The notes under the pieces are model-generated. The model had not been told where the DNA came from. It saw only the letters and a program-made list of their open reading frames with translations, and did no database searches. A stretch of DNA of 36,395 bases from a virus. The position numbers were made by a program, and so were the translations under genes. Positions 4,317-33,324 of the stretch are shown piece by piece (position 1 is the first letter of the stretch; every line of letters begins with the position of its first letter). The stretch is from the IMG/VR virus record IMGVR_UViG_3300021962_000299, positions 1-36,395 of that record; one strand, given 5' to 3'.

Positions 4317-4459
4317 TGTTCGTCTTGTATATTGAGTTCGATTAGTCCTGTTCCGTTGCAGTCCGCGCAGCGATAACGCAGCGTGCTGTTCGTCTCGACC
4401 GTGAACCATCCGCGTCCGCAGCACCAGCGGCATAAGATCGATACCTCTTCGTCAGTCAT
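4313..4459 (-). CDS. 48-aa DnaJ-type zinc-ribbon protein
   Basis: This short frame starts at ATG 4459-4457 behind a strong AAAGGAG ribosome site, overlaps the end of the RecE-like gene by 8 nt and ends in ATGA with the next gene. It contains CRWCCGRGW (about 10-18) and CADCNGTG (about 31-38), two CxxC knuckles each followed by a GxG, as in the zinc-binding repeats of DnaJ and many small phage zinc proteins. Between them lies a short Thr/Asn/Arg hairpin. It probably binds one zinc ion. Its cellular role is unknown. Confidence 0.75.
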   Translation of the reverse strand: MTDEEVSILCRWCCGRGWFTVETNSTLRYRCADCNGTGLIELNIQDEQ

Positions 4460-5294
4460 TGCGCGCTCCTTTCGCATACCATGACGGCACTCCCAGTTCG
4501 CGCAGCGTCGGCTCGATGTTCGGCCATTGGCCTGCCTCGATGCACGACTTCAGCCGCGTGAGATCGGCGACCGTCTCGTCCTGTCCGAGCGCGCACGCCT
4601 CGTCGGTCATTCGATATACGGCAACGCCATACGGCTCGACCTTTTCGACGGCGATGAAGAAAAAGTCATAGACAGGCTGCGCGACTGATTCGCTGACGAG
4701 CGGCAGATAGAATCCCGCTTGCCGATGGTAGCCGTAGCGAAACACCGTGCGCTCGAACGAGCCAAACTCGAAGTCGGCCAAGCTCTCGGTCGTCTTCACG
4801 TCGGCAATGTACGGACGACCGCCGGACAATTCGCATCCGCCGAGATTGATCCAGTCCGGTCGGCATTGGATCGCGAACGACTTCCCGATTGAGCGGAAAG
4901 ATCGTTCGGGAAAGCCATGCGCAAGCAACTCGTTGGCGAGCGGATGGGACGCAACCGATGCTGCCATCTCGGCGATCTGCGCGGCCTCGTCTTGATCGAT
5001 GATCGTCTTCCCGGCGTGCTGGGCCTCGAACGCTGCGAACTCATCTTTGCCCTGCTTCGTGCGCCGGTCGATGCCTTCTGGCCGAACCGCGAATTGCTCG
5101 TGCCACGTCATCGGCTCCAGAATGACAGCGTGCGCTGCCGATCCAACGCGGAACGCTGCGCTTGCAGGTTCGCGAGCAAGAATCTTCGCGACGTGACGCT
5201 TGTAATACAGCATCGGGCGGCGGCGGAATACCTCCAGCTTGGAGTGCGAAACAGCTTCGTTCGCGTGATATGCTTGGTTCGTCTCGATGATCAC
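4452..5294 (-). CDS. RecE-like PD-(D/E)XK exonuclease
   Basis: A 280-residue nuclease that would resect double-stranded DNA 5' to 3' to produce single strands for the RecT-like partner. The N-terminal segment contains the GSAAHAVILEP motif (about 51-61) with a metal-site His. The core follows with CRPDWIN (Asp147), IADVKTTES (Asp165 and Lys167) and YHRQAGFYLP (Gln192). This order matches the RecE / putative exonuclease-8 PDDEXK-like family. The start is GTG behind AAGGAGGTGA and overlaps the upstream stop (GTGA). The RecT-like annealase is three genes upstream, forming the usual two-component recombination set. Confidence 0.88.
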   Translation of the reverse strand: MIIETNQAYHANEAVSHSKLEVFRRRPMLYYKRHVAKILAREPASAAFRVGSAAHAVILEPMTWHEQFAVRPEGIDRRTKQGKDEFAAFEAQHAGKTIIDQDEAAQIAEMAASVASHPLANELLAHGFPERSFRSIGKSFAIQCRPDWINLGGCELSGGRPYIADVKTTESLADFEFGSFERTVFRYGYHRQAGFYLPLVSESVAQPVYDFFFIAVEKVEPYGVAVYRMTDEACALGQDETVADLTRLKSCIEAGQWPNIEPTLRELGVPSWYAKGARND

Positions 5295-5482
5295 GACTCA
5301 CCTCCTTTCAATATATCAAGACGATGCAACTCCGACGCCACGCGGTGCAGGATTTGCGTCGCGGAATGCACGACGCAGTAGGCGCGATAGTATTCTTCGT
5401 GATGCTTCAGCGTCCACGCGCGCTCGATGCAGTCTATCGCCTCGATGAACTTCGCGTTCAAGTCTACTTGTGAAATGATCAT
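5291..5482 (-). CDS. Small hypothetical protein, 63 aa
   Basis: A 63-residue, mostly helical protein lying between the RecT-like and RecE-like genes. It overlaps its upstream neighbour by ATGA and its downstream neighbour by GTGA. GGAGGGC lies a few nucleotides before the ATG. Composition is rich in Ile, His, Tyr and Glu, with a central HHEEYYRAYCVVHS segment at about 27-40 and no recognised domain. Its position inside the recombination operon suggests an accessory role, which is inference only. Confidence 0.6.
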   Translation of the reverse strand: MIISQVDLNAKFIEAIDCIERAWTLKHHEEYYRAYCVVHSATQILHRVASELHRLDILKGGES

Positions 5483-5772
5483 TGCTTGCCCTCCTCGATG
5501 CCGAGCTTCGACTGGAGCGGATCGACTTCCTGTTCGCTCTCGTCTTTATAGCGAGCGGACCAGCCGAGCTTGACGATCACGGTCGGTGCCTGCGCGAGCG
5601 CATCCCACTCGATTGCGACGGAGACTTTCGCGACCGGCTCGGTCTTCGTGTCATCATCGACGAACGAGTCAGATGCGGCCTTTCTAATCGCCTCGTAGTT
5701 TGTCTCAAGCAGACCGCGCAGTTGCTCGGTCGCGGAATTGATGACTGCGGTTCGGATTTCGTTTGTGCTCAT
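5479..5772 (-). CDS. Hypothetical protein, 97 aa
   Basis: ATG at 5772 is chosen because it lies 8 nt after the RecT-like stop. An upstream in-frame extension would overlap that gene and is Ser/Arg-rich. The N-terminal half is helical (NEIRTAVINSATEQLRGLL). The C-terminal half looks like two beta strands (VAKVSVAIEWDAL, TVIVKLGWSARYKD), a pattern seen in small phage proteins accompanying RecT. No catalytic motif is evident. There is no Shine-Dalgarno at the start, only an A/C-rich leader. Confidence 0.6.
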   Translation of the reverse strand: MSTNEIRTAVINSATEQLRGLLETNYEAIRKAASDSFVDDDTKTEPVAKVSVAIEWDALAQAPTVIVKLGWSARYKDESEQEVDPLQSKLGIEEGKQ

Positions 5773-5779
5773 GGTACGT

Positions 5780-6409
5780 TTAGAGGTTAGCGGTGAGTCC
5801 GGCGGCGACCTTCTCAGCGAGCGGCGTGACATTGACTGGTTCGTCGCGCACTTCTTCGGCGGTCTTCAGACCTTTCAGAACATCGCCGAACATATCGCGA
5901 AGGAGAAATCCGCGTGCGCGAAACTTGAGCATCCGGCGCGGATAATCAGTCCACGGCCCGCTCTTATTCCAGAGCTTCGCGGTCTTCGCGTCGGCGACCG
6001 TGAATGTCTCCGACTGCGGCTCGAAGCCGCGTCGCTTCGCGGTGACTTTATAGCCGTGCGAGTCCTTGCCCTGTTCTCCGATCTCCTCCTCGGAATAGCT
6101 TTCGAGCTGGCCGCTGGAGCGGATCAGCGCGAGCGCGGCGTCGCCGAATAGTGACGGCCGGCCGTTGACCACGGCGATGTTGGAGAGAGCAGCCATCGGA
6201 GTCAGGCCGAGTTCCGCGCCCCATTGGAGCGCGACGAGCACGCTTTCTGGTTTCTCCATTCCGCGCGGCGCGAAGCCAGAGCCGACGATTGCCTTCGCAA
6301 ATCGGAAGGCATCTTCAAGCGACGTGAGTTGCACGCCAGTCGAGCCGAATGAGATCGGCGATGATACAGCCGCTTTCGCGGCGACGATGATTTCGTTTTC
6401 GTTGTTCAT
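5780..6409 (-). CDS. recT: RecT-family single-strand annealing protein
   Basis: A 209-residue annealase that would coat single-stranded DNA and pair complementary strands. The segment from about residue 28 onward (LEDAFRFAKAIVGSGFAP), then SVLVALQWGAELGLTPMAAL and NIAVVNGRPSLFGDAALALI, is the signature of the RecT-type phage family. Further matching segments are SHGYKVTAKRRG, FTVADAKTAKLWNKSGPW and YPRRMLKFRARGFLLRDMF. Length is near the lower end for the family (about 200-300). ATG 6409 is preferred. In-frame ATG codons at 6427 and 6448 are alternatives, all lacking a Shine-Dalgarno. It pairs functionally with the RecE-like nuclease. Confidence 0.88.
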   Translation of the reverse strand: MNNENEIIVAAKAAVSSPISFGSTGVQLTSLEDAFRFAKAIVGSGFAPRGMEKPESVLVALQWGAELGLTPMAALSNIAVVNGRPSLFGDAALALIRSSGQLESYSEEEIGEQGKDSHGYKVTAKRRGFEPQSETFTVADAKTAKLWNKSGPWTDYPRRMLKFRARGFLLRDMFGDVLKGLKTAEEVRDEPVNVTPLAEKVAAGLTANL

Positions 6410-6457
6410 AAAAAATTTGTGCAGCATACAAAGCCCGCTGCGTAGCATTTTTTTTAT

Positions 6458-6463
6458 ATTATA
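6458..6463 (-). promoter_or_regulatory. Candidate -10 box before the recombination operon
   Basis: A perfect TATAAT sits in an AT-rich stretch (6451-6470) between the Gly-rich micro-gene and the RecT-like gene, about 50 nt before the RecT start. The expected -35 position falls in the GGC-repeat and is poor, so an activated promoter or chance is possible. The following leader contains a small GCAGC/GCTGC stem. Confidence 0.35.
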
Positions 6464-6468
6464 AATTA

Positions 6469-6606
6469 TTAGCCGTCGCCATAGCCGTAGCCTGAGCCGG
6501 AGCCGTCGCCGGAGCCGTAGCCGTAGCCGTAGCCGTAGCCATAGCCGTAGCCGTCGCCGTAGCCGTCGCCTGAGCCGGAGCCGTCGCCGTAGCCGTAGCC
6601 TTTCAC
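6469..6606 (-). CDS. 45-aa Gly-X dipeptide-repeat micro-protein
   Basis: A GTG at 6606-6604 overlaps the TGA of the upstream gene (GTGA), the same junction used elsewhere in this genome. The frame reads Met-Lys, then 21 Gly-X pairs where X is Tyr (12), Asp (5) or Ser (4), a final Gly, and TAA at 6471-6469. Every second residue is Gly, encoded always as GGC, and X codons are nearly all TAC, GAC or TCC/TCA. No Shine-Dalgarno is seen, so translation would depend on coupling. Such a chain would be disordered or self-associating. Its function is unknown. I have seen similar Gly-Tyr/Asp/Ser small proteins in phage and bacterial sequence, but have not verified a family. Confidence 0.55.
   Translation of the reverse strand: MKGYGYGDGSGSGDGYGDGYGYGYGYGYGYGSGDGSGSGYGYGDG
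6472..6600. repeat. Hexamer-like GGCTAC/GGCGAC/GGCTCC tandem array
   Basis: About 129 nt made almost entirely of 6-nt GGC-NNN units, with 12- and 18-nt higher-order copies such as GGCGACGGCTCCGGCTCA occurring twice (around 6570-6590 and 6500-6520). It coincides with the micro-protein above. Such an array is prone to slippage, so copy number may vary between isolates or be misassembled. Confidence 0.95.
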
Positions 6607-6890
6607 GCCGACCACACTTTCACGCTGCCGATCGACTCGCGCGCTTTTGCGGTCGTTGGAATGACTTCAATGACTTCCGGCAAGAGAATCTCCTCAACGA
6701 TGACCGGAAACTTGCATTCATTTGGTTTTGACGTGCCATCGACCGCGAGTTGGCTCAACGACGCTGCGCCCGACCAATACCAAATGCGCCGAGCGTTCTT
6801 AAGAATGGCCTCGCCAGCCTTATAGCTTTTCAAAACGCCAGCGAAAACTCCCGCTGAACGTGTTCTGATAATGACATATTTGTTTTTCAT
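6603..6890 (-). CDS. Conserved small phage protein (KYVIIRTRSAGVFAG type)
   Basis: A 95-residue protein with an N-terminal strand KYVIIRTRSAGVFAGVL, then ARRIWYWSGAASLSQLA (about 33-49) and a C-terminal strand region rich in Val/Ile/Glu. This order matches a family of small phage proteins of unknown function (DUF6948-like, from memory), often near replication or recombination genes. ATG 6890 follows an AT-rich leader without a Shine-Dalgarno. An extension upstream would overlap the preceding gene. Its stop overlaps the GTG of the Gly-X micro-gene. Confidence 0.75.
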   Translation of the reverse strand: MKNKYVIIRTRSAGVFAGVLKSYKAGEAILKNARRIWYWSGAASLSQLAVDGTSKPNECKFPVIVEEILLPEVIEVIPTTAKARESIGSVKVWSA

Positions 6891-6901
6891 GGGTGAAAAA
6901 T

Positions 6902-7306
6902 TTAGAACGGAACTTGGTCTTCGTTGACCGGCGCATTTCGCAGCACCGGCTCGTTCGCAGGAGCGGCCAGCTTGCCAGAGCGGCGGTGGACAATCGTCCG
7001 CGCAGCGTTGCGCAGTCGCACGTCCTCCGCTCGCGGCGGGAATGGCGTGCCGTCGTTGCGCAGGCGCGGCTCCGGTTCTTGCGCGTACCACTCGACCGAC
7101 TTCGGCGCGAGATCGCCCAGTCGCGTGCCTTTATTTTTTCCGAAATGCACGAGCACGTCGACTGCACCCTCGATGATCTCGGTCGGCATCGGCACCTCGC
7201 CGCGCGGTTGCGGCTTGGCCTGCGGAGCGTCGCTGGCCTTAGCCATCAGCGCGATTCGGATCGCTTTAATCTCAGCGAGAAGCTCGCTATATTGTTCATT
7301 TGTCAT
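6902..7306 (-). CDS. Protein with an exonuclease-X-C-terminal-like HFGKNKG motif
   Basis: A 134-residue protein with a helical N-terminus (about 1-25) and a Pro/Ala linker. The motif VLVHFGKNKGTRLGDLAPKS at about 51-70 is followed by VEWYAQEP. This motif resembles the short domain found at the C-terminus of exonuclease X and in small DUF3820-like proteins, which may bind nucleic acid. The extreme C-terminus EDQVPF looks like the acidic tail of single-stranded DNA-binding proteins that recruits partners, though no OB fold is evident. It overlaps the previous gene by 11 nt. Confidence 0.6.
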   Translation of the reverse strand: MTNEQYSELLAEIKAIRIALMAKASDAPQAKPQPRGEVPMPTEIIEGAVDVLVHFGKNKGTRLGDLAPKSVEWYAQEPEPRLRNDGTPFPPRAEDVRLRNAARTIVHRRSGKLAAPANEPVLRNAPVNEDQVPF

Positions 7307-7487
7307 TTTTTGTGGGTTCGAATTGTTCTTCGATTCGCCGCAGCTCGGCGCGTTCTGCTTCCGCCACGTCGCGCATTTCGCGGAGGCGGTGCTTGCTAGT
7401 AGTCATCGTCGCGTGCCAGTCGTCGTCGTGTCCGTCTGCGGCTCCGCAGCGCGCCATGCGCAGGAGTTCTGAGCGCGAGAGGTTCAT
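7296..7487 (-). CDS. Small charged hypothetical protein, 63 aa
   Basis: ATG at 7487 overlaps the stop of the previous HTH-like gene (ATGA), with GGAGG just upstream. The N-terminal segment contains LSRSELLRMARCG, then a His/Asp cluster (DGHDDDWH) and a charged helix (HRLREMRDVAEAERAELRRIEEQ). No family is recognised. A longer in-frame version up to 7772 would overlap the upstream gene entirely and is not preferred. Confidence 0.5.
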   Translation of the reverse strand: MNLSRSELLRMARCGAADGHDDDWHATMTTSKHRLREMRDVAEAERAELRRIEEQFEPTKNDK

Positions 7488-7678
7488 GTCGTCGCCTCCT
7501 TGCGCAGTTGCCTGATGAGTTGCCGCTCGTGCTCCGAGAGGTGCATCGCGCGCCAGCCAAGTTCCCACGAGAGCCGGTAGGTCCACGAGACGGAGATGCC
7601 AGCCTCGTGCGCAAATTCCTTCGGGCTTTTGCCTTGGCTGAGCGCGATATTGAGTGCGGTGCGAAGATCGGTTGTCAT
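7484..7678 (-). CDS. Small helix-turn-helix protein, 64 aa
   Basis: A 64-residue protein whose central part (about 17-40, SPKEFAHEAGISVSWTYRLSWELG) fits a helix-turn-helix, with the turn at AGIS. A second helix follows (SEHERQLIRQLRKEA). It could regulate the early operon or act with the adjacent methyltransferase. No operator is identified. It overlaps both neighbours by ATGA, so it is translated as part of a polycistron. Confidence 0.6.
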   Translation of the reverse strand: MTTDLRTALNIALSQGKSPKEFAHEAGISVSWTYRLSWELGWRAMHLSEHERQLIRQLRKEATT

Positions 7679-8664
7679 TCGAAGGAAAGCTCCTGCGTTT
7701 TCTGATCCCGCCCAATCGCTGATAGATTGCGAACCGCTTGCCGATAATAGCTCGACTTAAGTTCGACGCCAATGCCTTTGCGCCCGTTCAATACTGCGCC
7801 GTAAACTTCTGAGCCAACGCCCATGAAAGGAGTAAAGACTACCTCACCGGGATTCGACCATAGCACTACTGCGCGTTCGATCACGTCGAGTTGCAAAGGA
7901 TGCACATGGCGCTCATCGTCCTTATCGCGGCTTTCCTCGTAGGCGAGCACGTTGTCGATTCGTATATCATCCCAGACACACGATGCATATTGCCGCCAGA
8001 TCCAATGTGAGAAACGATTCTCGGTCTGCTTGCCTTCGTGTCCCTTCCATTCAAGCAACTCGCGCGGCATCTGACGCTCTCCGGCGTAAGAGTGGAGCCC
8101 AGTCGGGTGCGCGACTGGCACCGGATTCTCGCCCTTCTTTCTAAAGCAAAGCAGGTAGTCGCCTCCAGCAACGTCGCACAAAGTCGAGTCCTCGACGATC
8201 TGTGCGTGGGCAAGTCCTTTTGCCATCGTCCGCAATCGAACGCCGAGCGGCTCCTTCCAGATCACGCGGCGCATACAGAACTGGAATCCGTGCTTTTCGT
8301 GCGCGCGGATGATGTCACCGGGAAAGTCGATCAGCCCAGATCCTACGTTTGCGGCAATGCCCATCTTGGCGGTCGGCCCATTGCCGGTGCCAGCAACGTC
8401 CATACAATGCACCGCCGTGATCCGGCCAGATTTAGTAAGCCGCGCGATCTCCGAGATCACAAAGTCATAGTGCTCGAAGAACTCCGAGTAGGAGCGGCAG
8501 TTCGAAAGATCGCGTTCGCTGCTGCTGTAGTTGTACAGCCCGCAGAACGGAGGCGAGTAAACAGAGAGGTCAATCGATCCATCTGGCATCGCGCGCATTA
8601 CGTCGATGCAATCGGAGTTGTATAGTGCGAAGCGGTCTGTGATGTGTTGATTATCGTTGTTCAT
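7675..8664 (-). CDS. DNA methyltransferase (N6-adenine/N4-cytosine type)
   Basis: A roughly 329-residue SAM-dependent enzyme that would methylate an exocyclic amino group in DNA. From the ATG at 8664, the substrate motif SPPF lies at about 37-40, following NSDCIDVMRAMPDGSIDL. The SAM-binding FTPFMGVGSEVYGAVLNGRKGIGVEL segment lies near 291-316. Catalytic motif first and SAM motif last is the beta-class order. A second ATG 6 nt upstream (8670) is possible. The 8664 start gives the usual ATGA overlap with the helicase stop. No restriction endonuclease is adjacent, so it is probably an orphan methyltransferase protecting phage DNA or marking it for regulation. Confidence 0.85.
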   Translation of the reverse strand: MNNDNQHITDRFALYNSDCIDVMRAMPDGSIDLSVYSPPFCGLYNYSSSERDLSNCRSYSEFFEHYDFVISEIARLTKSGRITAVHCMDVAGTGNGPTAKMGIAANVGSGLIDFPGDIIRAHEKHGFQFCMRRVIWKEPLGVRLRTMAKGLAHAQIVEDSTLCDVAGGDYLLCFRKKGENPVPVAHPTGLHSYAGERQMPRELLEWKGHEGKQTENRFSHWIWRQYASCVWDDIRIDNVLAYEESRDKDDERHVHPLQLDVIERAVVLWSNPGEVVFTPFMGVGSEVYGAVLNGRKGIGVELKSSYYRQAVRNLSAIGRDQKTQELSFE

Positions 8665-10028
8665 AGCCATGAAGGAAAAGCGGGTTTGAAGGAAACGTGC
8701 TTCGATCCTTCGATGCGAAGCTCGTCGTTGATGAGTGATACCAGATGCTTAAACATCGCGTCGGCTTGGTCGGCCTTGCGTTGCAGATTCGAAACGACGC
8801 CTGACTCGCCCTCGGATGCGACGACATCGACGAAAACGTCGCGCTTTTGTCCGAAGCGCCAGCATCGGCGGACGGCTTGGTACCATTGCTCGAAGGAGTG
8901 GGATGGGAAAAAGGTCTGATGCGCGCAATGCTGCCAGTTTAGCCCAAAGCCCGCGATTTGCGGCTTAGTGATCAGCACGCGCAACTCGCCATTCGCGAAC
9001 GCCTCAAACGTCTCCTCCTTCTTGTCGTCCTCGTCGTCGCCGGATACCTCGGCTGCGTCTCGGATCAGCTTTGAGAGAGCCTTGCCCTCGTCATTAAGAT
9101 GACACCAGACGACCGCAGGCTTGCCGGTATTGCCGACAAGATTGGCGACTAGTTCGCATCGCTCGGCCAGCGTGCGGCGACGCTCCTCGCGTTGCTCTGC
9201 GAGCGTCATCGCTGGCAAGTCGAACAGCATCCCGTCGCGCTGGCTCCGCGCAACCACGACGTGTTCGCGCGTGATGAGCTTCGGCAGCTTAAACGGTCCG
9301 TCATCGCAACCAATATCGCTCGGCCTGCGAACGGCTCGCGCCCACGAGCAGACCCAGCGCCAGAACTCCTTCTCGGCATGGCCGCGAAAGCGCCAGACTC
9401 CAGCGCGGTGCTCGTCGGATCGCGACGTAGTCGGCCCTTGCTTCTTAAAAAAGCGTCCGAGCATATCTGAAAAGCCCATCTCGCCAAGCGCCTCGCTCGA
9501 CGTGCCGAGCTCGATGTAATCGTTGGGAGCGGCGGTCGCGGTGCAGAGCAGTCGGTAGGGAATTTTACGCGCGAAGTCCGTCACCGCGGCCTTCGTCATC
9601 CCGTCAAAGTTCTTGAGGATCGATGACTCGTCGCAGACGACGCCCGCGAATTGCGTCCGGTCGAAGTGGTGAAGGCGTTGGTAGTTGGTAACGACCACGC
9701 GCGCGCCTAGCGGGAACTTGCCATCCGAGGACCGCACGCAATCGATGCCGAACTTCTCGCCCTCCTCGACAGCTTGCCGCGCCACGGCGAGCGGAGTCAG
9801 CACAAGGACCGGACGGTTCGTATGCCGCACGACATTTTCGGCAAAGGTTAACTGGATCGCTGTCTTACCCAGCCCGCAGTCAGCGAAGATAGCGGACCGG
9901 CCGCGCTCGACTGACCACGAGACAAGCGCCCGCTGAAATTCGAATAATTTGGACGGTATGAAGGTAGGCTCGAACCCGTGCCTAGCTCCGACGTGCCGCT
10001 TGGCGTCGAGGAAAGTCTCGTAATTCAC
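8661..10028 (-). CDS. SNF2/DEAD-like helicase
   Basis: A 455-residue ATP-dependent translocase. Walker A DCGLGKTAIQL is at about 50-60, motif Ia LVLTPLAVARQ at 76-85, Walker B VVCDESSILKN at about 130-140 and motif III LLCTATAAPND at 160-170. C-terminal motifs are LITKPQIAGFGLNW and QAVRRCWRFGQKRDVFVDVV, the arginine-finger region of SNF2-type enzymes. The start is GTG at 10028, overlapping the lysozyme stop (GTGA). An in-frame extension to 10148 lies inside that gene and is Arg/Gly-rich. Phage SNF2-like helicases are common in replication and modification regions. Its target and polarity are not known. Confidence 0.88.
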   Translation of the reverse strand: MNYETFLDAKRHVGARHGFEPTFIPSKLFEFQRALVSWSVERGRSAIFADCGLGKTAIQLTFAENVVRHTNRPVLVLTPLAVARQAVEEGEKFGIDCVRSSDGKFPLGARVVVTNYQRLHHFDRTQFAGVVCDESSILKNFDGMTKAAVTDFARKIPYRLLCTATAAPNDYIELGTSSEALGEMGFSDMLGRFFKKQGPTTSRSDEHRAGVWRFRGHAEKEFWRWVCSWARAVRRPSDIGCDDGPFKLPKLITREHVVVARSQRDGMLFDLPAMTLAEQREERRRTLAERCELVANLVGNTGKPAVVWCHLNDEGKALSKLIRDAAEVSGDDEDDKKEETFEAFANGELRVLITKPQIAGFGLNWQHCAHQTFFPSHSFEQWYQAVRRCWRFGQKRDVFVDVVASEGESGVVSNLQRKADQADAMFKHLVSLINDELRIEGSKHVSFKPAFPSWL

Positions 10029-10638: not shown

Positions 10639-11045
10639 GACGCCACCTCCTTCTGCACCGCGTAGCCGTCGCGGAGCTTGACGATGGCGAGAGCGTCCTG
10701 CGCTGGCGTGAGCGAGATCGTGATCCCGCCGCGCGTGCTCGGCCATACCTCGCAGAGGACGATCTCCGCGAGAGACCAGCCGCTCGTCGAGCGGACGAGA
10801 GTCACGCGGTTGACGACCCTCTTGTATTTGTAGGACTGCGGCACCGTGCCGCCAGAGGCAAAGACGCACCGTGCGCCCGCCCGCTGGGCCTTCGTAAGAC
10901 CGAGAGATGCGAGCTTCTGCTCGGCATCCTCGGCAGCGCGGAAAATGTCCGCGCAACTCGCCGTGTGGGCGGTGGCGCGACCGTTGACGTTCGCGAGCGC
11001 GGCGACGATGCGCGGCTCGTTGGCTTTGCTGATTTTTATGTTCAT
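10635..11045 (-). CDS. Hypothetical protein, 136 aa
   Basis: The start is uncertain. ATG 11045 follows the leader AAACAACGACAC without a Shine-Dalgarno. ATG 11072 has GGAGG only 2 nt away, and GTG 11084 has none. From 11045 the N-terminus (NIKISKANEPRIVAALANVNGRATAHT) reads like a compact alpha/beta domain, followed by Ala-rich helices and a strand-rich half (YKRVVNRVTLVRS, GWSLAEIVLCEVWPS, GGITISLTPAQDALAIVKL). It is the first gene after the tail module and opens the leftward early-type region. No function is recognised. Confidence 0.6.
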   Translation of the reverse strand: MNIKISKANEPRIVAALANVNGRATAHTASCADIFRAAEDAEQKLASLGLTKAQRAGARCVFASGGTVPQSYKYKRVVNRVTLVRSTSGWSLAEIVLCEVWPSTRGGITISLTPAQDALAIVKLRDGYAVQKEVAS

Positions 11046-11118
11046 GTGTCGTTGTTTCGTCTCGGGCCTCATTGCCTCCGACACAACGACTCAACCCGAT
11101 CCGCCCGTGGATGGAAAG

Positions 11119-11156
11119 CAAAAAGCGCAAAAGTTTTCCCGCACTTTTGTAAGTGC
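11119..11156 (-). terminator. Candidate weak intrinsic terminator after the tail genes
   Basis: In the 150-nt spacer after the last tail gene, GCACTT (11141-11146) and AAGTGC (11151-11156) form a 6-bp stem with a 4-nt loop. Downstream on the minus strand comes a T-rich run (CTTTTGCGCTTTTTGC). A second 7-bp pairing (CAAAAGT with ACTTTTG) overlaps it, and a CGCGCA/TGCGCG stem precedes it. This fits a boundary between late and early regions, but the stems are short. Confidence 0.35.
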
Positions 11157-11195
11157 TTGGAATCGCGCAGATTGCGCGGAGAGAAAAATGCGCGG

Positions 11196-11897
11196 TCAGA
11201 CGTACGTGTAGTTGCTCGTGCTGCCGGTTAGGCTCGGAGTGGTGCCGACAGCGGGAGTGCCAGTACCGTAAATGTATGCGTACCACGGAAAAACAAACCC
11301 GCCGAGGGTAACAGTACCATTGGCGAATGAACCGCCAAAGTCATTGTCGTTAAAATAAATGCCCACGTAATCATTTACACCAGCAGAGGCATAAACGTTG
11401 AATGATAACCCAAAGTATAGTTTGAATTTTCCAAGGTTTATAGGGTCTGGGCCAACATAAAAAAATAATCCGAAAAAACTAGTTGATGGATCACCTGAAT
11501 CTCGACCTTCCACAGCAAAGATGTTTCCTACCTGTCCGCTTACTAGCTCAGGCGCACACACTCGCTCTCGCGGAATCTTGTTAGGAGGAAAAGAATCCCA
11601 TGCGATCCAAAGAGTTGTCGTTGGACACCACATTCCGCTTGCTCCACCTTCATCATATAAAGTGGCATTGATTCCAGATGGATCAAATGTAAGGGTGTTG
11701 GCTATATTCGCGGTTGACGTACCATTGCTAATCGTTCCGGCCGTCGTGATCGTCATGGTTTCTGTGCTCCATGCGAACGCCATTACGTCTGACTCATTGA
11801 GGTTATCTATATAATTGAAACCACTAGCTGAATCAGTCATTCCACAAAAGGCTTCCGGCCAATTTCCAATATGCAAAAAACTAGATGTGGTTCCCAT
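11196..11897 (-). CDS. Putative tail-tip or receptor-binding protein, 233 aa
   Basis: A beta-rich protein with many Thr/Ser/Asn/Gly and aromatic residues (FGLFFYVGPDP, FKLYFGLSFNVYASAGVNDYVGIYFNDNDFGG). It ends in a Thr/Ser/Gly-rich tail, as in phage tail-tip or adhesin proteins. It is the last gene of the tail module and is markedly AT-richer than its surroundings: one 60-nt stretch at 11401-11460 is about 35% GC. A role in host contact is inferred from location and composition. No named domain is visible. Confidence 0.6.
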   Translation of the reverse strand: MGTTSSFLHIGNWPEAFCGMTDSASGFNYIDNLNESDVMAFAWSTETMTITTAGTISNGTSTANIANTLTFDPSGINATLYDEGGASGMWCPTTTLWIAWDSFPPNKIPRERVCAPELVSGQVGNIFAVEGRDSGDPSTSFFGLFFYVGPDPINLGKFKLYFGLSFNVYASAGVNDYVGIYFNDNDFGGSFANGTVTLGGFVFPWYAYIYGTGTPAVGTTPSLTGSTSNYTYV

Positions 11898-11915
11898 CCG
11901 ACTTCGCGCTGCTTG

Positions 11916-12356
11916 TTAATACGTTGTGCTCGATAAAAAACGAGCAGTTGCAGGAGTTCCGTTAGAGCAGACAGAATACTCACGCATGGCGTAATTACCG
12001 TAAAACATATCTGAGGGCTGAATCACCAAGAAATTTCCAGAACTATGATCCGAAATTTCTAAGCTAGCATCATTATGGAGTTGGATATAATCAGAAGAAA
12101 CCTGATTCAAAACTTTTACTCCATCAGCATCTATTGTTATCAGAACATTTCCATCGTCGAATACTAGAGAGGCCGCTTGTCCTCCGGTAACACTGACGCC
12201 CGACCCATCAATCAGCAGTTTGCCGTCGCTCGCGTAAACGGTGATTCCGCCTGCGCCCTCGGCGTTCTTGATGAGATCGACAAGCGCATTGTGTGCCGTG
12301 CCGACGCTGGCAAACGCGGCAGGCAGTGAATCAATCTTGAGCGATGAGTCGGGCAT
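11916..12356 (-). CDS. Putative tail/baseplate-associated protein, 146 aa
   Basis: The N-terminal helical part (SLKIDSLPAAFASVGTAHNALVDLIKNAEGAGG) is followed by a beta-rich repeat region (ITVYASDGKLLIDGSGVSVTGG, LVFDDGNVLITIDADGVKVL), typical of trimeric fibre or tail-spike shafts. AT content rises sharply in its 3' half. It sits between two other predicted tail proteins. No Shine-Dalgarno is present. It may form a small fibre or an attachment piece. Confidence 0.55.
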   Translation of the reverse strand: MPDSSLKIDSLPAAFASVGTAHNALVDLIKNAEGAGGITVYASDGKLLIDGSGVSVTGGQAASLVFDDGNVLITIDADGVKVLNQVSSDYIQLHNDASLEISDHSSGNFLVIQPSDMFYGNYAMREYSVCSNGTPATARFLSSTTY

Positions 12357-12362
12357 ATAATA

Positions 12363-13262
12363 TCAGGAAGCTGTCACCATGCGCGTTGAACGTACATAGA
12401 TGTTGCCATAGAAGCGGCGTAACACCGAATCGGCCGCTGTAATCAAAACTGAGTCCTCGACCATCTGCGCATACGTTGCCGAAACGGGTTGCGTGGCCGT
12501 GGTCAGGAATTCCGTTTCGGCACCCGTGGCGTCGATGGGCGTAAACTTCGCCATGATCGGCAGCGCGGTATTTATCCCGGTCGGCGAGGTCAGCGCGTAG
12601 TCGTTCACGATGCGCGAGCCTACCACCTTCGTCACCGGAAGCGCGCGATACTTGGCCCGCTTGGTGATCGTGCCAGTGACGGACGTGAACGCGCCAGAGC
12701 CGAAGAAAATGTCTGAAACCACCGCAAATGATTCATCCGTGCCGCCGACCGTCTTGATGAACTGGCCGATGTAGTACGTCTCAGATTCGCGAACGTAGTT
12801 GGCCGCAATGTAAACCTCGTCACCCGTCGAGAACGGAAGCGACGAGTAAACGGCGATGTTGTCGCCCGTAGTCGTGATGCTGCTGATAGCGTAGTTTGAC
12901 CCGGCCGTTGCGCTTTCTAGATAGGCCGGGAACGTAAACACAAACTCCTCCGGATCATCCCACGACTGCGGAACGCGCGCGTAAACGCGATCCCATGACA
13001 AGATTCCTCCGCTTACGTCCGTGAAATTTTCTTCAGCAACAAGATAGTAAGTCGGCGAAGACGGAACGCCGTATTGGCCTTGAGCTGGGTAAACCGCATC
13101 CAGCGCAAGCGGCGTGTAGCTTGCCGCTGTCTGCATGAAAGGTTGCCGGAAAAGCACTTTGTCATTCGGCGTCGGCAATACGGGTTGCCACACGGGAAGC
13201 CCAACCGTAGTCGCAACGTTAAATGCCGTTTGGCCCGCCTTGGTGAAATAGGTGACGCTCAT
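12363..13262 (-). CDS. Putative tail protein, 299 aa
   Basis: A beta-rich protein following the tape-measure-like gene (ATGA overlap). Segments such as YYLVAEENFTDVSGGILSWDRVYARVP and ETYYIGQFIKTVGG, and a C-terminal VLRRFYGNIYVRSTRMV, suggest a structural distal-tail-like protein rather than an enzyme. In siphophages the genes after the tape measure encode distal tail and baseplate components, so that is the contextual guess. No recognised domain. Confidence 0.6.
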   Translation of the reverse strand: MSVTYFTKAGQTAFNVATTVGLPVWQPVLPTPNDKVLFRQPFMQTAASYTPLALDAVYPAQGQYGVPSSPTYYLVAEENFTDVSGGILSWDRVYARVPQSWDDPEEFVFTFPAYLESATAGSNYAISSITTTGDNIAVYSSLPFSTGDEVYIAANYVRESETYYIGQFIKTVGGTDESFAVVSDIFFGSGAFTSVTGTITKRAKYRALPVTKVVGSRIVNDYALTSPTGINTALPIMAKFTPIDATGAETEFLTTATQPVSATYAQMVEDSVLITAADSVLRRFYGNIYVRSTRMVTAS

Positions 13263-14500
13263 TTTTTAGCCTCGCCAGATTTTCCGCCGCCGCTCTTCGC
13301 GCCTGACGGTGCTAGAAATCCTCGAATGTCTTTAAGGTGCTGCTCACTCTTGTCGATTGCCTGTGACATTGACTTCAGCGGATCAGATTCCGCCGATTTT
13401 AGTCCAGTGATTCGCTTCCTAAGCTCAAGAGCCTGATCAGTCGTCTTTAGAGCTTCTGCCTCGAAACCTTGTGCGCGTTGACGCTTTGCTCGTGCTTCCA
13501 GCATCATAACCCGTCTCGCGCGTGCTCTTTGCGTCTGGCTACTCTCGGAAGCTCCAGATGCTACCTCTTCAAGTGTTAGTGCTGACCGTTCGCGCTTTGC
13601 CTCTCCTTCTTCAAGTCTCGCCTTTGACGCATCTGAGTATGCATCGCGCAATTTCTTTTCCGCTTCGTCTCGCTCCTTGTTCTGCTTTTCCAGTTCGTCG
13701 GTCTGCTTCTTTTGCAAGTCGAGCAGCGAGCCTTCCAGCTCCTTCAACCTGATCCGGCGCGAAAAATCGGCGTCGCCTGAAAGCGCAATGGTAGTACGCA
13801 AGTTTCTAATCTCCTCCTCCGTAGTTGCGATCTGCTCAAGCGTCGTTTGCTGCTTGGCTTTGTTCGCGGCCTCTAGCTCTCCCATCCGCTGCTCGGCGGC
13901 ATAAACCTTTTCGGCGTTGTCGAGTTCGGTCTTAGCAGCGATTTCAGCTTTATTCGCGATCCTTTCCTTCAGCTTGGCTTCTTCTTCGGCCAGCTTGGCA
14001 AGCTGCTGCTCAAGCTCCGCGCGCTTCAATGGATCGTCTTCTTTGGTTACCTTCTCTTCCGTGACCTCCGAAACGCCGCCAACGCCAGTTGAAATCATGG
14101 TCACTCGCTTCTCAGTCTTGGCGCGCGTATCCTCAATTTCGCGCAGCGTTCTAGCCTGCTTCTGCTGATTCAACGCCAGATTCTGCTCGTCCGTTCTGCG
14201 ACCGGCAAAAATGCGCTCGTAGATATCGGCCGTCGTTTCCGTAAGGTTGGCGATTTTTTGGGCCTGCTCTGCGGCTTCACGAAATCCAGAAACCAACTTA
14301 TCGACGACCGATTGAACCGTGTTTATTCCTAAACCTAGCAAAAATCCTTTAAATACTCCACCGACACCAAAGCTGCCCTTCAGCTTGTTGCCCATGTCTT
14401 TTGCCGCAGTGCCGACTTCGGCCTGCGTTTGCGTCAGCTTGCGCCGGAACTCTTCTGTATCTAAACCGAGTCGCGCTCGTACTTCTGCAAGAAATGCCAT
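13259..14500 (-). CDS. Short tape-measure-like tail protein
   Basis: A 413-residue, largely coiled-coil protein. The N-terminus (RARLGLDTEEFRRKLTQTQAEVGTAAKDMGNKLKG) matches the start of many tape-measure proteins. It is followed by a small hydrophobic patch (GVFKGFLLGLGINTVQSVV, about 49-67) that could be the membrane-insertion segment. Long Ala/Glu/Lys/Arg helices follow to a Gly/Ser/Lys-rich tail. At roughly 0.15 nm per residue a tail of about 60 nm is implied, which is short. It follows the chaperone-position gene. Confidence 0.75.
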   Translation of the reverse strand: MAFLAEVRARLGLDTEEFRRKLTQTQAEVGTAAKDMGNKLKGSFGVGGVFKGFLLGLGINTVQSVVDKLVSGFREAAEQAQKIANLTETTADIYERIFAGRRTDEQNLALNQQKQARTLREIEDTRAKTEKRVTMISTGVGGVSEVTEEKVTKEDDPLKRAELEQQLAKLAEEEAKLKERIANKAEIAAKTELDNAEKVYAAEQRMGELEAANKAKQQTTLEQIATTEEEIRNLRTTIALSGDADFSRRIRLKELEGSLLDLQKKQTDELEKQNKERDEAEKKLRDAYSDASKARLEEGEAKRERSALTLEEVASGASESSQTQRARARRVMMLEARAKRQRAQGFEAEALKTTDQALELRKRITGLKSAESDPLKSMSQAIDKSEQHLKDIRGFLAPSGAKSGGGKSGEAKK

Positions 14501-14504
14501 GACT

Positions 14505-15134
14505 TTATGCCGCCACCACAGGGCAGCTTAGTTCTTTTAGAAACTCACTTGTCAGAAGATCGCTGGGCGAGTGATCAACAAATTCTTTACCATCCTTACG
14601 CGCCCGAATCGCTTTCATATATTGAAATAATCTGGGAAGTGGTGTCCCGAGAATATCCTGCTGACTCCAGCTTGTCTCTAATGCGATATTGATAATTAGT
14701 GGAGCCAAGAAACACGTGCCAAGTGGCCTACGCTCGGAATTACCTCCACTTCCATTTGTGCCAGCATCCATAAAAATTTCCTCAACGTAATTCATACAAG
14801 AGCCAACAAGTGTCTCATATGGTTGAGGAGCTAGCCTACGAATCATTTTATCACGCTTTCGTAGCGTTCGCCAAGATTGCGTTTTGTCGTTCTCTACGTG
14901 TAGCAACCAAAAGAAAACTAAAACGTCCTCTGGCTTAGGCTCGATAGGACACACGAACGGAGAATTTACTCCGTTCAGCAGCAGTAGATCACGCGGCGTC
15001 ATCGCACGCAAAGGCTCGCCGCATACTACGTGTGGCAGATCGAGAAAAGCCTGCTCGCGTCGGCTTTCCTCCTTCTGCCGTTCTTCAGCAAAGCGAGCCG
15101 CGTATTTTTCCGCCCATAATTTTTGTGGATCCAT
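14505..15134 (-). CDS. Probable tail assembly chaperone-position protein
   Basis: A 209-residue protein with a Glu/Lys/Arg-rich helical start and an MTPRDLLLLNGVNSPFV segment (about 45-61). EDVLVFFWLLHVEND (about 69-83) follows, and a helical C-terminus with PLPRLFQYMKAIRARK. It sits between the putative tube gene and the tape-measure-like gene, the usual place of tail assembly chaperones, and the segments above fit phage proteins of that position. No frameshift site is visible. The nucleotide sequence is AT-richer than the genome average. Confidence 0.55.
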   Translation of the reverse strand: MDPQKLWAEKYAARFAEERQKEESRREQAFLDLPHVVCGEPLRAMTPRDLLLLNGVNSPFVCPIEPKPEDVLVFFWLLHVENDKTQSWRTLRKRDKMIRRLAPQPYETLVGSCMNYVEEIFMDAGTNGSGGNSERRPLGTCFLAPLIINIALETSWSQQDILGTPLPRLFQYMKAIRARKDGKEFVDHSPSDLLTSEFLKELSCPVVAA

Positions 15135-15191
15135 GAGGCGTCATTGGCTGACTGCTGGTGCAACACAAGCCGCACAAGCAACCTCAGGCTG

Positions 15192-15560
15192 TTAGATTTC
15201 CTCGCGAAGCGTCAGGGTCTGCTTCTTGGCTTCTCGCGGACCTTCAGGATTCGAAGCATTCGTTACAACGAAGGTGATGCTCGTGCCATTTTTGATCGTC
15301 GTGTTCAGATAATCACCACGAGAAACATAAGTGGTCGAGCTAGTAGCCAACTGCGCCGTGGCAGTAGCGGTTCGAGGCTCTGCAATGAGCACAAATCCAT
15401 TCGGTGCTCCAAGCTCATTTTGACGAGAAATTTCAGCGGTTGGTTCGCTGAATTCAAACGCTTCGAGAATTGCAGCACCAGTGCCACCAGCACTAAAGGT
15501 GAAAGTAACAACGCGACTTCCGTATGGGAAGTTGGATGGGTAGAGATAAGGAATCGCCAT
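15192..15560 (-). CDS. Putative major tail tube protein, 122 aa
   Basis: A small beta-rich protein (PYGSRVVTFTFSAGGTGAAILEAFEFSEPTAEISRQNELG, then TATATAQLATSSTTYVSRGDYL and TSITFVVTNAS). The size, strand-rich character and position between a tail-completion protein and the chaperone/tape-measure pair fit a tube or tube-like protein. No Shine-Dalgarno is visible. The start is taken as the first ATG, 30 nt after the previous gene. The identification rests mainly on gene order. Confidence 0.55.
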   Translation of the reverse strand: MAIPYLYPSNFPYGSRVVTFTFSAGGTGAAILEAFEFSEPTAEISRQNELGAPNGFVLIAEPRTATATAQLATSSTTYVSRGDYLNTTIKNGTSITFVVTNASNPEGPREAKKQTLTLREEI

Positions 15561-15590
15561 AATGTGAGAGGTTCAAAAGAAACGAATATG

Positions 15591-16082
15591 TCAAACTGTC
15601 GGAACTACTGCCGGAAGAATCCCATATTCGATTCTGTAACGAAAGGATGTGATATCTTCCCTGTTTTGCTCAGGATCGCGTACGCCTGTTGATGTTCCTG
15701 TTTCATTAACGTCCAATGTTTGATACCATGTGACCGCAGGCGCAGTTAGCAACTGCGCTTGACGCGACATCAAATAGCGAACGCGACCACGAATTTCACC
15801 GTGATCTTGGTATGTTTCAGAGACGCGATTCGTTACAACATCAATACGCAGTGAAGCATAACGATGAGAAAAATACCACTCATCGTCGGCATAAGCCATT
15901 TGATCCGAAGCCTGTCCCACTTCTTCAACGTCAACCTCAATACGTGGAGTCGTGAAATACGAGACAGATTGGGCCGGAAGGATGTTAGCGGTAGGAACGC
16001 TTGTTCCGCCAGCCGCCAAGACGGCAACGACCGATGCAACCCAATTCTCTTCTTCGTTCCAGAGGTCTGCTAGCGTTGACAT
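15591..16082 (-). CDS. Putative tail completion (terminator) protein, 163 aa
   Basis: A 163-residue protein with an N-terminal helix (MSTLADLWNEEENWVASVVAVLAA) and a strand-rich body (RIEVDVEEVGQAS, YASLRIDVVTNRV), ending in ITSFRYRIEYGILP. This layout fits the lambda gpU-like tail terminator group by shape. It follows the neck-like gene by 2 nt and precedes the tube-like gene. Local composition is AT-rich. The name is based on order and fold impression rather than a definite motif. Confidence 0.5.
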   Translation of the reverse strand: MSTLADLWNEEENWVASVVAVLAAGGTSVPTANILPAQSVSYFTTPRIEVDVEEVGQASDQMAYADDEWYFSHRYASLRIDVVTNRVSETYQDHGEIRGRVRYLMSRQAQLLTAPAVTWYQTLDVNETGTSTGVRDPEQNREDITSFRYRIEYGILPAVVPTV

Positions 16083-16084
16083 AT

Positions 16085-16849
16085 TTAGTCTGCGGGTTGA
16101 CCGTGAATAGTTGCTGCAAGCGATCCGCGTCTGCTTTTTCCACCAGCAACAATCCTCTGCAATTCTTTTTGCATTGATACTGCGCGCATTTTTGTTGCGG
16201 CACTAACTACATTAAATTCGTAATTCGGAATTTTAGACGATCTGTTGATCGCTTCAATTTCGAGCCTATCTGGTCTAGGTGGCCTATAGCCACTGCCGGC
16301 CTTACCGGAATGACGACTAACCCATTTAGGAAGTTTTAATCCTACTGCATTTGCAGCGGCTGACCATCCAGCTCTAGCAAAGCCAACAAATGACTGCACG
16401 GTTTTAGTATAAGTGTCCCAATGGTCAGCAAATGCCATTCTGTTTTTATCGCTCCTGACTCTCCCATATCGCGTTCTATGTCTCTTATGGTTTTCCTTTA
16501 TTTCCGCAACTGATAGCAAAAGTCGGCGATATGCAAAGAATCCCTTTCTTTGCTTCATCCACAATTCGCGAATTGCGTTTATATCTCTACTCAAAACCAA
16601 TTCTTTCATCCTTTTCCATTTGATTTTCTCTGGCCGCAATGGAAAGGCAGCTCGATATAAATCGCCAGAAATTGCATCTTCACCCTGTTTGCGTGTCTTT
16701 GGTGGAGTGAATCGCATGATGTCACGTAAGAGCAGCCGCATTTCTTCCTTCAACAGCTTTGTGCCATCTGCACCGAGCTGATACACAAAAGAGTTTATCG
16801 CGGCTCGGTATTGCACTTTCGCAATCTCAAATGAGATGCTTATTTTCAT
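16085..16849 (-). CDS. Putative neck or minor tail protein, 254 aa
   Basis: A basic 254-residue protein. The N-terminal region contains LLLRDIMRFTPPKTRKQGEDAI (about 42-63), a motif seen in minor tail/neck proteins of the gpZ or HK97 gp10 type that organise the head-tail joint. The central part is Lys/Arg/His-rich (KENHKRHRTRYGRVRSDKNRM) and could contact DNA. The ATG overlaps the upstream stop. The gene is distinctly AT-rich (one 60-nt stretch at 16441 is about 40% GC). Confidence 0.6.
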   Translation of the reverse strand: MKISISFEIAKVQYRAAINSFVYQLGADGTKLLKEEMRLLLRDIMRFTPPKTRKQGEDAISGDLYRAAFPLRPEKIKWKRMKELVLSRDINAIRELWMKQRKGFFAYRRLLLSVAEIKENHKRHRTRYGRVRSDKNRMAFADHWDTYTKTVQSFVGFARAGWSAAANAVGLKLPKWVSRHSGKAGSGYRPPRPDRLEIEAINRSSKIPNYEFNVVSAATKMRAVSMQKELQRIVAGGKSRRGSLAATIHGQPAD

Positions 16850-17175
16850 GCTAGTGGCCTACGCAAAGCGTAGTCATGCCATTGTTCATCTGCGTTCATA
16901 GTTATGATCTGATATGTCGTCGAATCGAAAACGCGATAGATGAATGTATTCGGTTCAAAGCCAACCGTCATAGATGCTCTAGGAATACAAAGAGAAATGC
17001 TGCGATCATCCACGAAGCCGGATGCTTCCATAATGATTCCGCGACTAAGTTGGTTGAAAACTCCGTAATAAGTAACACTAGAAGAAAGGAAGGGTTCGCT
17101 CGCCTGCCCATCTGGGCCACCAATCGCGAGGGCATCTATTGCCAATCTTTCAATGTTGAAATCTTTTACAGCCAT
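16846..17175 (-). CDS. Putative head-tail connector protein, 109 aa
   Basis: A 109-residue protein with strand-rich segments (SVTYYGVFNQLSRGIIMEASGFVDDRSISLCIPR, TTYQIITMNADEQWHDYALRR). It lies directly before the neck-like gene in the order connector, neck, terminator, tube. A stopper or head-closure role is inferred from position only. It starts 2 nt after the carbohydrate cassette, which therefore separates it from the capsid gene. Confidence 0.5.
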   Translation of the reverse strand: MAVKDFNIERLAIDALAIGGPDGQASEPFLSSSVTYYGVFNQLSRGIIMEASGFVDDRSISLCIPRASMTVGFEPNTFIYRVFDSTTYQIITMNADEQWHDYALRRPLA

Positions 17176-17891: not shown

Positions 17892-18526
17892 CGGCGAAAT
17901 GCCATTGTCAGAATGTTTGGAGCGCAGGAATCTGCATCCGGCTTGCGCACTTCATCTTCGGGATTGCCGACATAGACCGGACGGAATCCAGCCTGCGCGA
18001 ATAGTCTCGTCAGGCTTCCCGGCGTGAAGTGCCAGAGATGTTCTCCCGGCCTGCGATGTTTCCATCGAGCGAACCATTTCGCTCCCATGTAAGGATGATA
18101 CCACGGCAGCGATACGATCACCGCACGAGCGCGCAGATGCTCAACGAAGTCGAGCGAATCGAAGTGCTCAAGACTGTCGAAGAACGTTACCGTGTCCCAT
18201 TGCAACTCGTGCCAGTCTGCGCCGACTCGATTGATGAAAGACGGAAGCGGATAAGGAGAAACGTCGTGACCGCAGCAAACGATTCCCGGCTGCGTGCGTT
18301 TCATCTCTTCGAGGAAAGCACCTGTGCCGCAGCCTACGTCGCAAACATTGATCGCAAATTCGGAAAAGCGATGCACTAGCTTCGCTCTGATCGCCGACAA
18401 TTCACGCTGTGGATAGTTTTCATATCGTGCTACGTAGGCGTGATCGTAAACCGCAGTCACGCGACGATCCCTCGACCGGAGCGCGCCTGTCTTCGCGTCG
18501 ATTTGATAATGCTCGGGAACGTTCAT
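17888..18526 (-). CDS. Class I SAM-dependent methyltransferase
   Basis: A 212-residue protein with the SAM-binding motif VCDVGCGTGAFLEEM (about 61-75) and a FFDSLEHFDSLDF segment that corresponds to motif IV. SLPWYHPYMGAKW and a C-terminal strand region follow. It resembles small-molecule or sugar O-methyltransferases (methyltransf_23 type) rather than DNA methylases. The start at 18526 (ATGA overlap with the glycosyltransferase) is chosen over a longer Arg-rich extension that overlaps that gene. Likely substrate: a sugar placed or built by the neighbouring transferases. This is inference. Confidence 0.8.
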   Translation of the reverse strand: MNVPEHYQIDAKTGALRSRDRRVTAVYDHAYVARYENYPQRELSAIRAKLVHRFSEFAINVCDVGCGTGAFLEEMKRTQPGIVCCGHDVSPYPLPSFINRVGADWHELQWDTVTFFDSLEHFDSLDFVEHLRARAVIVSLPWYHPYMGAKWFARWKHRRPGEHLWHFTPGSLTRLFAQAGFRPVYVGNPEDEVRKPDADSCAPNILTMAFRR

Positions 18527-32466: not shown

Positions 32467-33324
32467 TTATACTCCGCACATTCCTTCGCATTCATTTCCG
32501 AAGAGATTTGCTTGGCGAGGGTCGATCATTTCAAGACTGACTTGGTCGAGTGGTTGCAGAGATGAATGCAAAAATGGAATGCCTTTCATGTTGGTGGTTT
32601 TTGCTTTCACCGCTTGCAGATCGCGCTCGAACGCGACGGCTCGCTTGAACTCCTCGGGTTCCTCATCTCGCAGCCGTTTCCATTCTTTGTCGCTATGGAA
32701 CGGGCAATAAACGCAAGCCGACCTTGGTGGCTTTGGATATCCGCGCTTGCTCATCCATTCCAAGCAATGGTTGCGCGTCATTTCCAATTCAACCAATGGC
32801 CAACGATGTTGCACCCACGCAACTCGACTTGGTTTCATTCTCTGGATCTCGTCCATTGAAATACCTATCCAAGAAGTGACTGTGACTTCTTTTTGGCCGC
32901 GTTTGATTCCGGCCATTTTCCTCTGCTGCTTGATCAATGTTTTTACCTTGTAGTCGTAGGTGCATGAACGTCCTAAAATTCCACGGCTTCCGTCAGGATT
33001 TTTGATGAACGCCGGAATCAATGACTTCGACCAAGGAGGTCCGGGTTTTTTAACCCGTTCGCGAAGCTTCAGGCTTTCATCGGTCAAAGATCCTTTTGTG
33101 ATACGGATAATCGGGAATGAAAACGTGCTTCGCCCGATCTCTGCTTCGAGATAATCGAGCCAGCGATACACGCTTGCAGGTTCTGCTTGTGTATCCGCAA
33201 AAATCGCTGCGTCCGGTTTTGGTCCGATTTCTCCGCGTGCTGCCATTAGCGCAAGCGTGCTTGATTGCACGCCAGCACCCAGAGAAAGAAAATTGAAACG
33301 GGTCGGTGGTGGGGTCGTGAACAT
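32467..33324 (-). CDS. PP-loop ATPase / PAPS-reductase-like protein
   Basis: A 285-residue protein with the PP-loop-like SLGAGVQSSTLALM (about 14-27), IFADTQAEPASVYRWLDYLE, GRSCTYDYKVKTLIKQQ (Cys121) and RSACVYCPFHSDKEW (Cys204, Cys207). PP-loop ATPases of this type adenylate substrates for sulfur transfer (PAPS reductase, DndC, tRNA thiolases). The three cysteines could hold a metal or Fe-S site. It may take part in DNA or RNA modification together with the Mom-like gene nearby. It overlaps the preceding 52-aa gene by one base (TGATG). Confidence 0.78.
   Translation of the reverse strand: MFTTPPPTRFNFLSLGAGVQSSTLALMAARGEIGPKPDAAIFADTQAEPASVYRWLDYLEAEIGRSTFSFPIIRITKGSLTDESLKLRERVKKPGPPWSKSLIPAFIKNPDGSRGILGRSCTYDYKVKTLIKQQRKMAGIKRGQKEVTVTSWIGISMDEIQRMKPSRVAWVQHRWPLVELEMTRNHCLEWMSKRGYPKPPRSACVYCPFHSDKEWKRLRDEEPEEFKRAVAFERDLQAVKAKTTNMKGIPFLHSSLQPLDQVSLEMIDPRQANLFGNECEGMCGV

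Follow-up and report, generated by a model that had tools for sequence, protein, structure and literature searches.

The Gly-X array studied here belongs to a pair of overlapping genes, in which a gene for a DUF6948 protein is followed by a gene for a Gly-X repeat microprotein (GX). The two genes are paired across phages, their coupling has a recurrent geometry, and the composition of the repeat is constrained at the protein level. The pair is probably a widespread two-gene phage module, undescribed so far. Sequence comparison indicates selection for the encoded repeat protein, in which composition and frame are kept while order and length are quick to change.

The repeat gene and its overlap with the upstream gene

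The window, i.e., the whole analysed stretch of 36,395 bases, is a virus record with terminase, portal, major head protein, and tail genes. The array is located on its minus strand; the initial annotation stated no strand. Translation of positions 6606–6469 gave VKGYGYGDGSGSGDGYGDGYGYGYGYGYGYGSGDGSGSGYGYGDG, 45 residues of the form Val-Lys-(Gly-X)21-Gly followed by the stop codon TAA, with 11 Tyr, 5 Asp, and 5 Ser at X, which bears out the annotated product of 45 residues with 21 Gly-X pairs (Tyr, Asp, Ser). Each of the 21 pair glycines is encoded by GGC, and among the 21 X codons, four, namely TCA twice and TAT twice, are third-base variants of TCC/TAC. The array had a Tandem Repeats Finder score of 164–178, far above that of any other repeat in the window. 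No promoter-like site was found within positions 5700–7400 and no terminator-like one adjoining the array. An antisense gene over the array was rejected, as the plus-strand frame contains stops. The next gene downstream, which we regard as context outside the pair, encodes a RecT-like ssDNA annealing protein (5780–6448, minus strand; PHROG 561 E 2.9e-39, Pfam RecT E 4e-5), and a gene for an exonuclease VIII-like PD-(D/E)XK nuclease lies farther downstream. In INPHARED, no close relative of window positions 4452–9000 was found.

The GTG at 6606 stands in a GTGA that overlaps the TGA of the upstream gene (6890–6603, minus strand). A second in-frame GTG is present at 6615, and the ORF finder begins the GX frame there (48 aa, MVGVKGYG...). 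The GX gene (6469–6615, minus strand) thus encodes 48 aa if translation starts at GTG 6615, which homology favours, and 45 aa if it starts at GTG 6606. As initially reported, the frame is complete and overlaps the conserved gene upstream of it. Its start was revised: the product of the window probably begins at 6615, because the GTG there matches the position favoured in relatives. A start at 6606 alone was rejected on the same grounds.

With the start at 6615, the two genes overlap by 13 nt (6603–6615, minus strand; G TGG TCG GCG TGA), and the GX start codon is composed of the last base of the codon preceding a conserved Trp and the TG that opens the Trp codon itself. Among 123 non-redundant loci, 86 had a start codon at the corresponding position, -13 relative to the end of the upstream stop, and in 72 of these it was ATG. 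The GX frame relative to DUF6948 was -1 in 81 of 92 loci (p 1.5e-27), and the codon before the terminal Trp ended in A in 77 of 95 loci versus 29 expected from codon use in the DUF6948 gene body (p 6e-24); these p-values take the loci as independent, which the relatives are not entirely. In a larger set, ATA was used before Trp in 21 of the 22 Ile cases versus 19% of Ile codons otherwise. There is strong evidence at the level of sequence that the GX start codon is selected. A Shine-Dalgarno motif preceded the start at -13 in 35 of 86 loci (41%), the gene body having a mean of 9% and a maximum of 44%. Locus L159, devoid of GX, reads GTT TGG, so the start codon is absent at that site.

In nearly all loci, GX is a separate ORF with its own start and a different frame, i.e., not a covalent continuation of the Sm-like domain. 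A DUF6948-GX fusion was rejected and a -1 frameshift judged unlikely: no ORF joining the two was present in the loci, and DUF6948 terminates where it normally does. GX has start codons of its own, which makes frameshifting unnecessary.

Pairing across phages and selection on the repeat peptide

Beyond what was initially annotated, the GX protein recurs in other phages as a near-obligate partner of DUF6948. The first search drew on loci that encode relatives of DUF6948, of which 80 were viral and 29 came from genome contigs. A GX-repeat ORF came directly after the DUF6948 stop in 99 of 102 cases (loose count, four phage records included); by the stricter count, it followed 92 of 97 independent DUF6948 stops versus 1 of 560 stops of control ORFs taken from these loci. 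Among the apparent exceptions, those inspected were L231 with a short array of six units, L159 with neither array nor start codon, L232, where the sequence is cut off just where the array begins, and L235 with a fragmentary DUF6948 match.

For the second search, arrays were gathered by DNA pattern alone, which yielded at least 120 loci. Among the matches listed, a DUF6948-superfamily gene was located upstream (within 600 nt, same strand) of 79 of the 96 arrays with enough upstream sequence, a count that is partly circular, as about 20 of the loci fed three of the four profiles; upstream on the opposite strand, there were none among the matches listed. The DUF6948 protein of the window, used as the sole tblastn query, detected 52–59 of the 120 array loci listed. 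Divergent families preceding arrays were linked to DUF6948 by HHalign (94.4% and 96.8%; 98.2% between two of them), and direct comparison of profiles A1 and A4 was weak (12.5% probability). Families A2 and A4 are DUF6948 relatives outside the reach of the Pfam model. The pair was present in contigs assigned to very different hosts, and the genes around it were diverse among loci. No DUF6948 match was found in the plasmid collection.

Some loci encode a larger protein in which GX forms the N-terminal arm and is joined to a domain of about 150 aa carrying a WHHRLTGSC motif. This GX-fused domain (L106:9409-9876, minus strand, and relatives L236–L318) has an invariant W-H..L-T-x-S-C..G-R pattern. 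GX preceded the fused-type domain in 78 of 83 loci; in 55 of these 78, a DUF6948-like gene was present upstream, and 22 more were too short to tell. No match to the domain was found in Pfam, PHROGs, or NCBIfam. Its AlphaFold2 model had a pLDDT of 92, and comparison with PDB revealed no convincing fold (VIA Z 5.4 for the best match and less than 5 for the others).

The composition of the repeat was determined for 126 arrays with 3599 X positions. Ser (37.5%), Tyr (29.0%), and Asp (24.0%) together made up 90.5% of X residues. Residues one first- or second-base transition away were rare (Asn 2.5%, Phe 1.9%; His, Cys, Gly, and Pro near or below 1%), and third-base C/T variants were common at X codons. 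GC3 of X codons tracked genome GC (rho 0.61, p 4e-14; class means between 0.26 and 0.98), and the residues were unchanged; this peptide grammar persisted over 25 to 73% GC. Gly codons were mostly GGC or otherwise GC-ending even in AT-rich loci (Gly GC3 0.69). A chance or non-coding simple repeat was rejected on the basis of the codon drift with genome GC together with the conservation of frame. The peptide is acidic, with a charge of about -0.11 per residue. Judging from selection, the chain is presumably translated and, judging from composition, presumably disordered.

A comparison of GX copy number had been proposed at the outset, along with a check for frameshifts or stops in relatives. The frame was kept in nearly all relatives, and the idea of a translated array stood. 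Copy number was compared among eight isolated phages, namely the seven Pectobacterium phages Sabo, Koroua, Taid, Ymer, Abuela, Amona, and Pappous and Dickeya phage Setonix, the DUF6948 genes of which differ from that of phage Sabo by 41–48 of 399 bases. They carried seven distinct arrays, with products of 53–89 residues, and every difference in array length was a multiple of 6 nt; such steps are also expected from whole-unit slippage and are alone no proof of selection. The N-terminus MSKLIKPE(K/R)YG did not vary, and all but one of the seven distinct arrays ended in GEG.

No PHROGs, NCBIfam, or PADLOC model matched the GX protein, and Pfam gave solely sub-cutoff compositional matches, TrAA12 among them. 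Public records label the GX product "hypothetical protein." In Chlorobiaceae phage CV-1-33 (MT192033; L205:3283-3528), the annotated CDS runs through the array in another frame (MAMAMAMALAMAL...); the frame that encodes GX, after the DUF6948 gene, gives MDGINYGYGDGDGSGD... Such proteins can be overlooked by gene callers. Many contigs (e.g., L123, L125, L148, L164, L172, L201, and many contigs with the C-terminal domain) end in or by a GX array. Metagenome assembly seems to break at these arrays, which probably leaves the GX family under-counted. L123 was rejected as a near-identical relative with a different array, as this contig ends inside the array and the bases that differ may stem from an assembly end effect.

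Predicted fold of the DUF6948 protein and possible roles of the pair

The upstream gene (6603–6890, minus strand) encodes a protein of 95 aa that is a clear member of Pfam DUF6948 (PF22253; E 1.1e-28, 99.6 bits with a cut-off of 27), a family for which Pfam states no function and the GX partner of which has no model. The AlphaFold2 model, based on 40 sequences, had a pLDDT of 96.7 and a pTM of 0.87, and the predicted fold is a small five-stranded Sm-like beta-barrel. The best 50 Foldseek matches in PDB were all Sm/LSm proteins or spliceosome Sm subunits (probability 1.00, E about 1e-3). VIA-align rows were likewise all Sm/LSm (Z 7.0–8.1, rmsd mostly 1.4–2.6 Å, roughly 56–77 residues), a Z of about 8 being the level that the tool flags as perhaps a common arrangement. 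The nearest solved folds belonged to archaeal SmAP and eukaryotic Sm/LSm proteins (SmAP1 1i8f/1jri/1i4k, Lsm1-7, Lsm2-8). Unlike these, DUF6948 in its predicted fold has a helix at the C-terminus, its strands 3 and 4 are separated by a conserved helical insertion (GAASLSQLA..GT..P..CKFP), which holds much of the strongest conservation, and the Sm2 Arg-Gly motif was absent from the strand 4–5 loop in alignment A1 (e.g., EEILLPEV or DRVELLEA). The alignment has 17 invariant columns, and the mean net charge is weakly positive (+2.0).

In profile searches, SM-ATX (ataxin-2 Sm domain) gave a weak match in 2 of 40 members (E 0.037, residues 6–36, 14.7 bits, below the cut-off of 29.8). No Sm-clan profile matched DUF6948 above cut-off, and for this reason we call the protein Sm-like rather than a member of the Sm family; Hfq and LSM Pfam models were not significant. 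DUF6948 would thus be Sm-like by predicted fold and outside the Sm family by sequence. An Sm-like protein of a cyanophage has a crystal structure.

By analogy with Hfq, we tentatively favour, at slightly less than an even chance, the explanation that GX is a disordered acidic and Tyr-rich tail provided in trans to an Sm-like DUF6948 nucleic-acid chaperone. GX would be a translationally coupled partner of DUF6948, made at a coupled dose and supplied to the barrel as a separate tail. Its Asp residues could mimic nucleic acid, its Tyr residues could contact Arg or aromatic residues of the barrel, and the chain may compete with RNA or ssDNA on DUF6948 and recycle it. Multivalency, not exact sequence, would matter, a view that fits the conserved composition and the freely changing order and length of GX. 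The C-terminal tail of E. coli Hfq, which is acidic and disordered, binds the basic Sm core as a mimic and competitor of nucleic acid and has a regulatory effect on RNA binding (PMC5606850). In A. baumannii Hfq, the number of GGFGGQ repeats in the tail affects RNA interaction and fitness (PMC11617691). The likeness would lie in an Sm-type barrel, predicted for DUF6948, teamed with a chain that, in the case of GX, is presumably disordered as judged from its composition. E. coli Hfq has an acidic tip, and that of A. baumannii combines Gly-rich repeats with an acidic tip, whereas GX is encoded by a separate overlapping gene and is a strict two-residue repeat with Asp distributed along the chain; the barrel here is DUF6948, without a significant sequence match to the Hfq or LSM Pfam models. 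Several observations speak against the trans-tail explanation: GX is fused to another domain in some phages, which a pure tail model would not predict; no in-frame DUF6948-GX fusion occurs among the loci; the Sm2 motif is missing in A1 and the charge of DUF6948 is weakly positive; and the structural matches stay at a Foldseek E of about 1e-3 and a VIA Z of about 8.

Unlikely, in our estimate, is that GX acts as a condensation scaffold in which Tyr residues are the stickers and Gly/Ser the spacers, and which the Sm-like protein recruits, so that phage replication/recombination proteins or mRNA are concentrated in a compartment. Its sticker-spacer-like composition is preserved while order and length vary, the pair adjoins a RecT gene here and follows Erf and SSB genes located about 1.5 kb upstream in phage Sabo, and phase separation of FUS is driven by Tyr-Arg contacts (PMC5927716). 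GX resembles FUS-type Tyr-rich domains and Gly-Tyr silk and keratin-associated proteins as a Gly/Ser/Tyr-rich low-complexity chain; this is a likeness in composition, and GX differs as a strictly alternating, acidic phage microprotein. The net negative charge of GX would oppose self-association, a median of 30 units per array is small for condensate formers, with some arrays as short as six units (L231), and the neighbouring genes are diverse. The initial idea that the chain sticks to membranes or wraps proteins was left without support. The pair might instead be aimed at the host, with DUF6948 and/or GX inhibiting a factor such as a nuclease, Rho, or Hfq or serving as its decoy, and with arms-race turnover of the arrays, which we consider improbable. 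Arrays do turn over very fast among close relatives, the pair is spread over contigs of very different assigned hosts, and the Sm-like protein Rof inhibits Rho (PMC11018626); however, DUF6948 is strongly conserved, unlike an arms-race protein, and no PADLOC defence profile matched, in a library that excludes counter-defence.

Small barrels resemble one another structurally, and DUF6948 could be a generic one (SH3/Tudor-like), serving as an adaptor that binds proteins and recognises the GX peptide. The absence of the Sm2 motif and the location of much of the top conservation in the beta3-beta4 helical insertion, not in the loops that bind RNA in Sm proteins, agree with this; nevertheless, neither SH3 nor Tudor appeared among the best 50 Foldseek matches and the VIA rows, and the weak SM-ATX sequence match is independent of them. 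We consider an adaptor of this kind improbable. Least of all do we expect the repeat to act as a DNA or RNA element (recombination site, mRNA structure) with incidental translation. The persistence of GC-ending Gly codons in AT-rich loci and the frequent contig ends in arrays, expected of tandem DNA, are compatible with such a role and are opposed by the drift of X codons with genome GC at fixed residues, the rarity of first- and second-base transitions beside common third-base ones, the conserved frame and start codon, and the stops in the antisense reading of the window array. This role is very improbable.

More generally, it is possible, though somewhat doubtful, that many bacterial and possibly archaeal phages encode a split system of an Sm-like, perhaps ring-forming, protein and a hypervariable Gly-X chain, working as a two-part chaperone for nucleic acids or as a condensate. 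An Sm core with a disordered tail is already known; the split arrangement with a strict Gly-X tail in trans is new within a partial search of the literature. In the part of the literature and the family libraries searched, no split Sm and trans-tail system was described, and the same part of the literature contained no mention of DUF6948 and, among papers with GX peptide strings, no phage product. DUF6948 and the repeats that break assemblies and mislead gene callers become one testable module, found in many kinds of virus contigs and in isolated Pectobacterium phages. It offers a natural experiment on the grammar of disordered proteins, with fixed composition, free order and length, and phage fitness as the readout. 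Should DUF6948 prove to be an Sm-like chaperone, an Hfq-like factor together with a regulatory tail in trans would be present in many unrelated phages.

Other features of the window

Positions 11001–17000 of the window have a G+C content of 45–54% versus about 58% elsewhere, and the ORFs tested from this region gave no PHROGs match. A glycosyltransferase with two domains is encoded at 18523–20223 (minus strand), and its halves match PHROG 13126 and 14945. A phosphoadenosine phosphosulfate reductase-like gene (32467–33324, minus strand) is located beside the terminase genes. A gene for a Mom-like DNA modification protein (34952–35734, minus strand; PHROG 1384, E 3e-45) adjoins a ParB-like gene at 35731–36327, and a possible function of the Mom-like gene is counter-defence by DNA modification.
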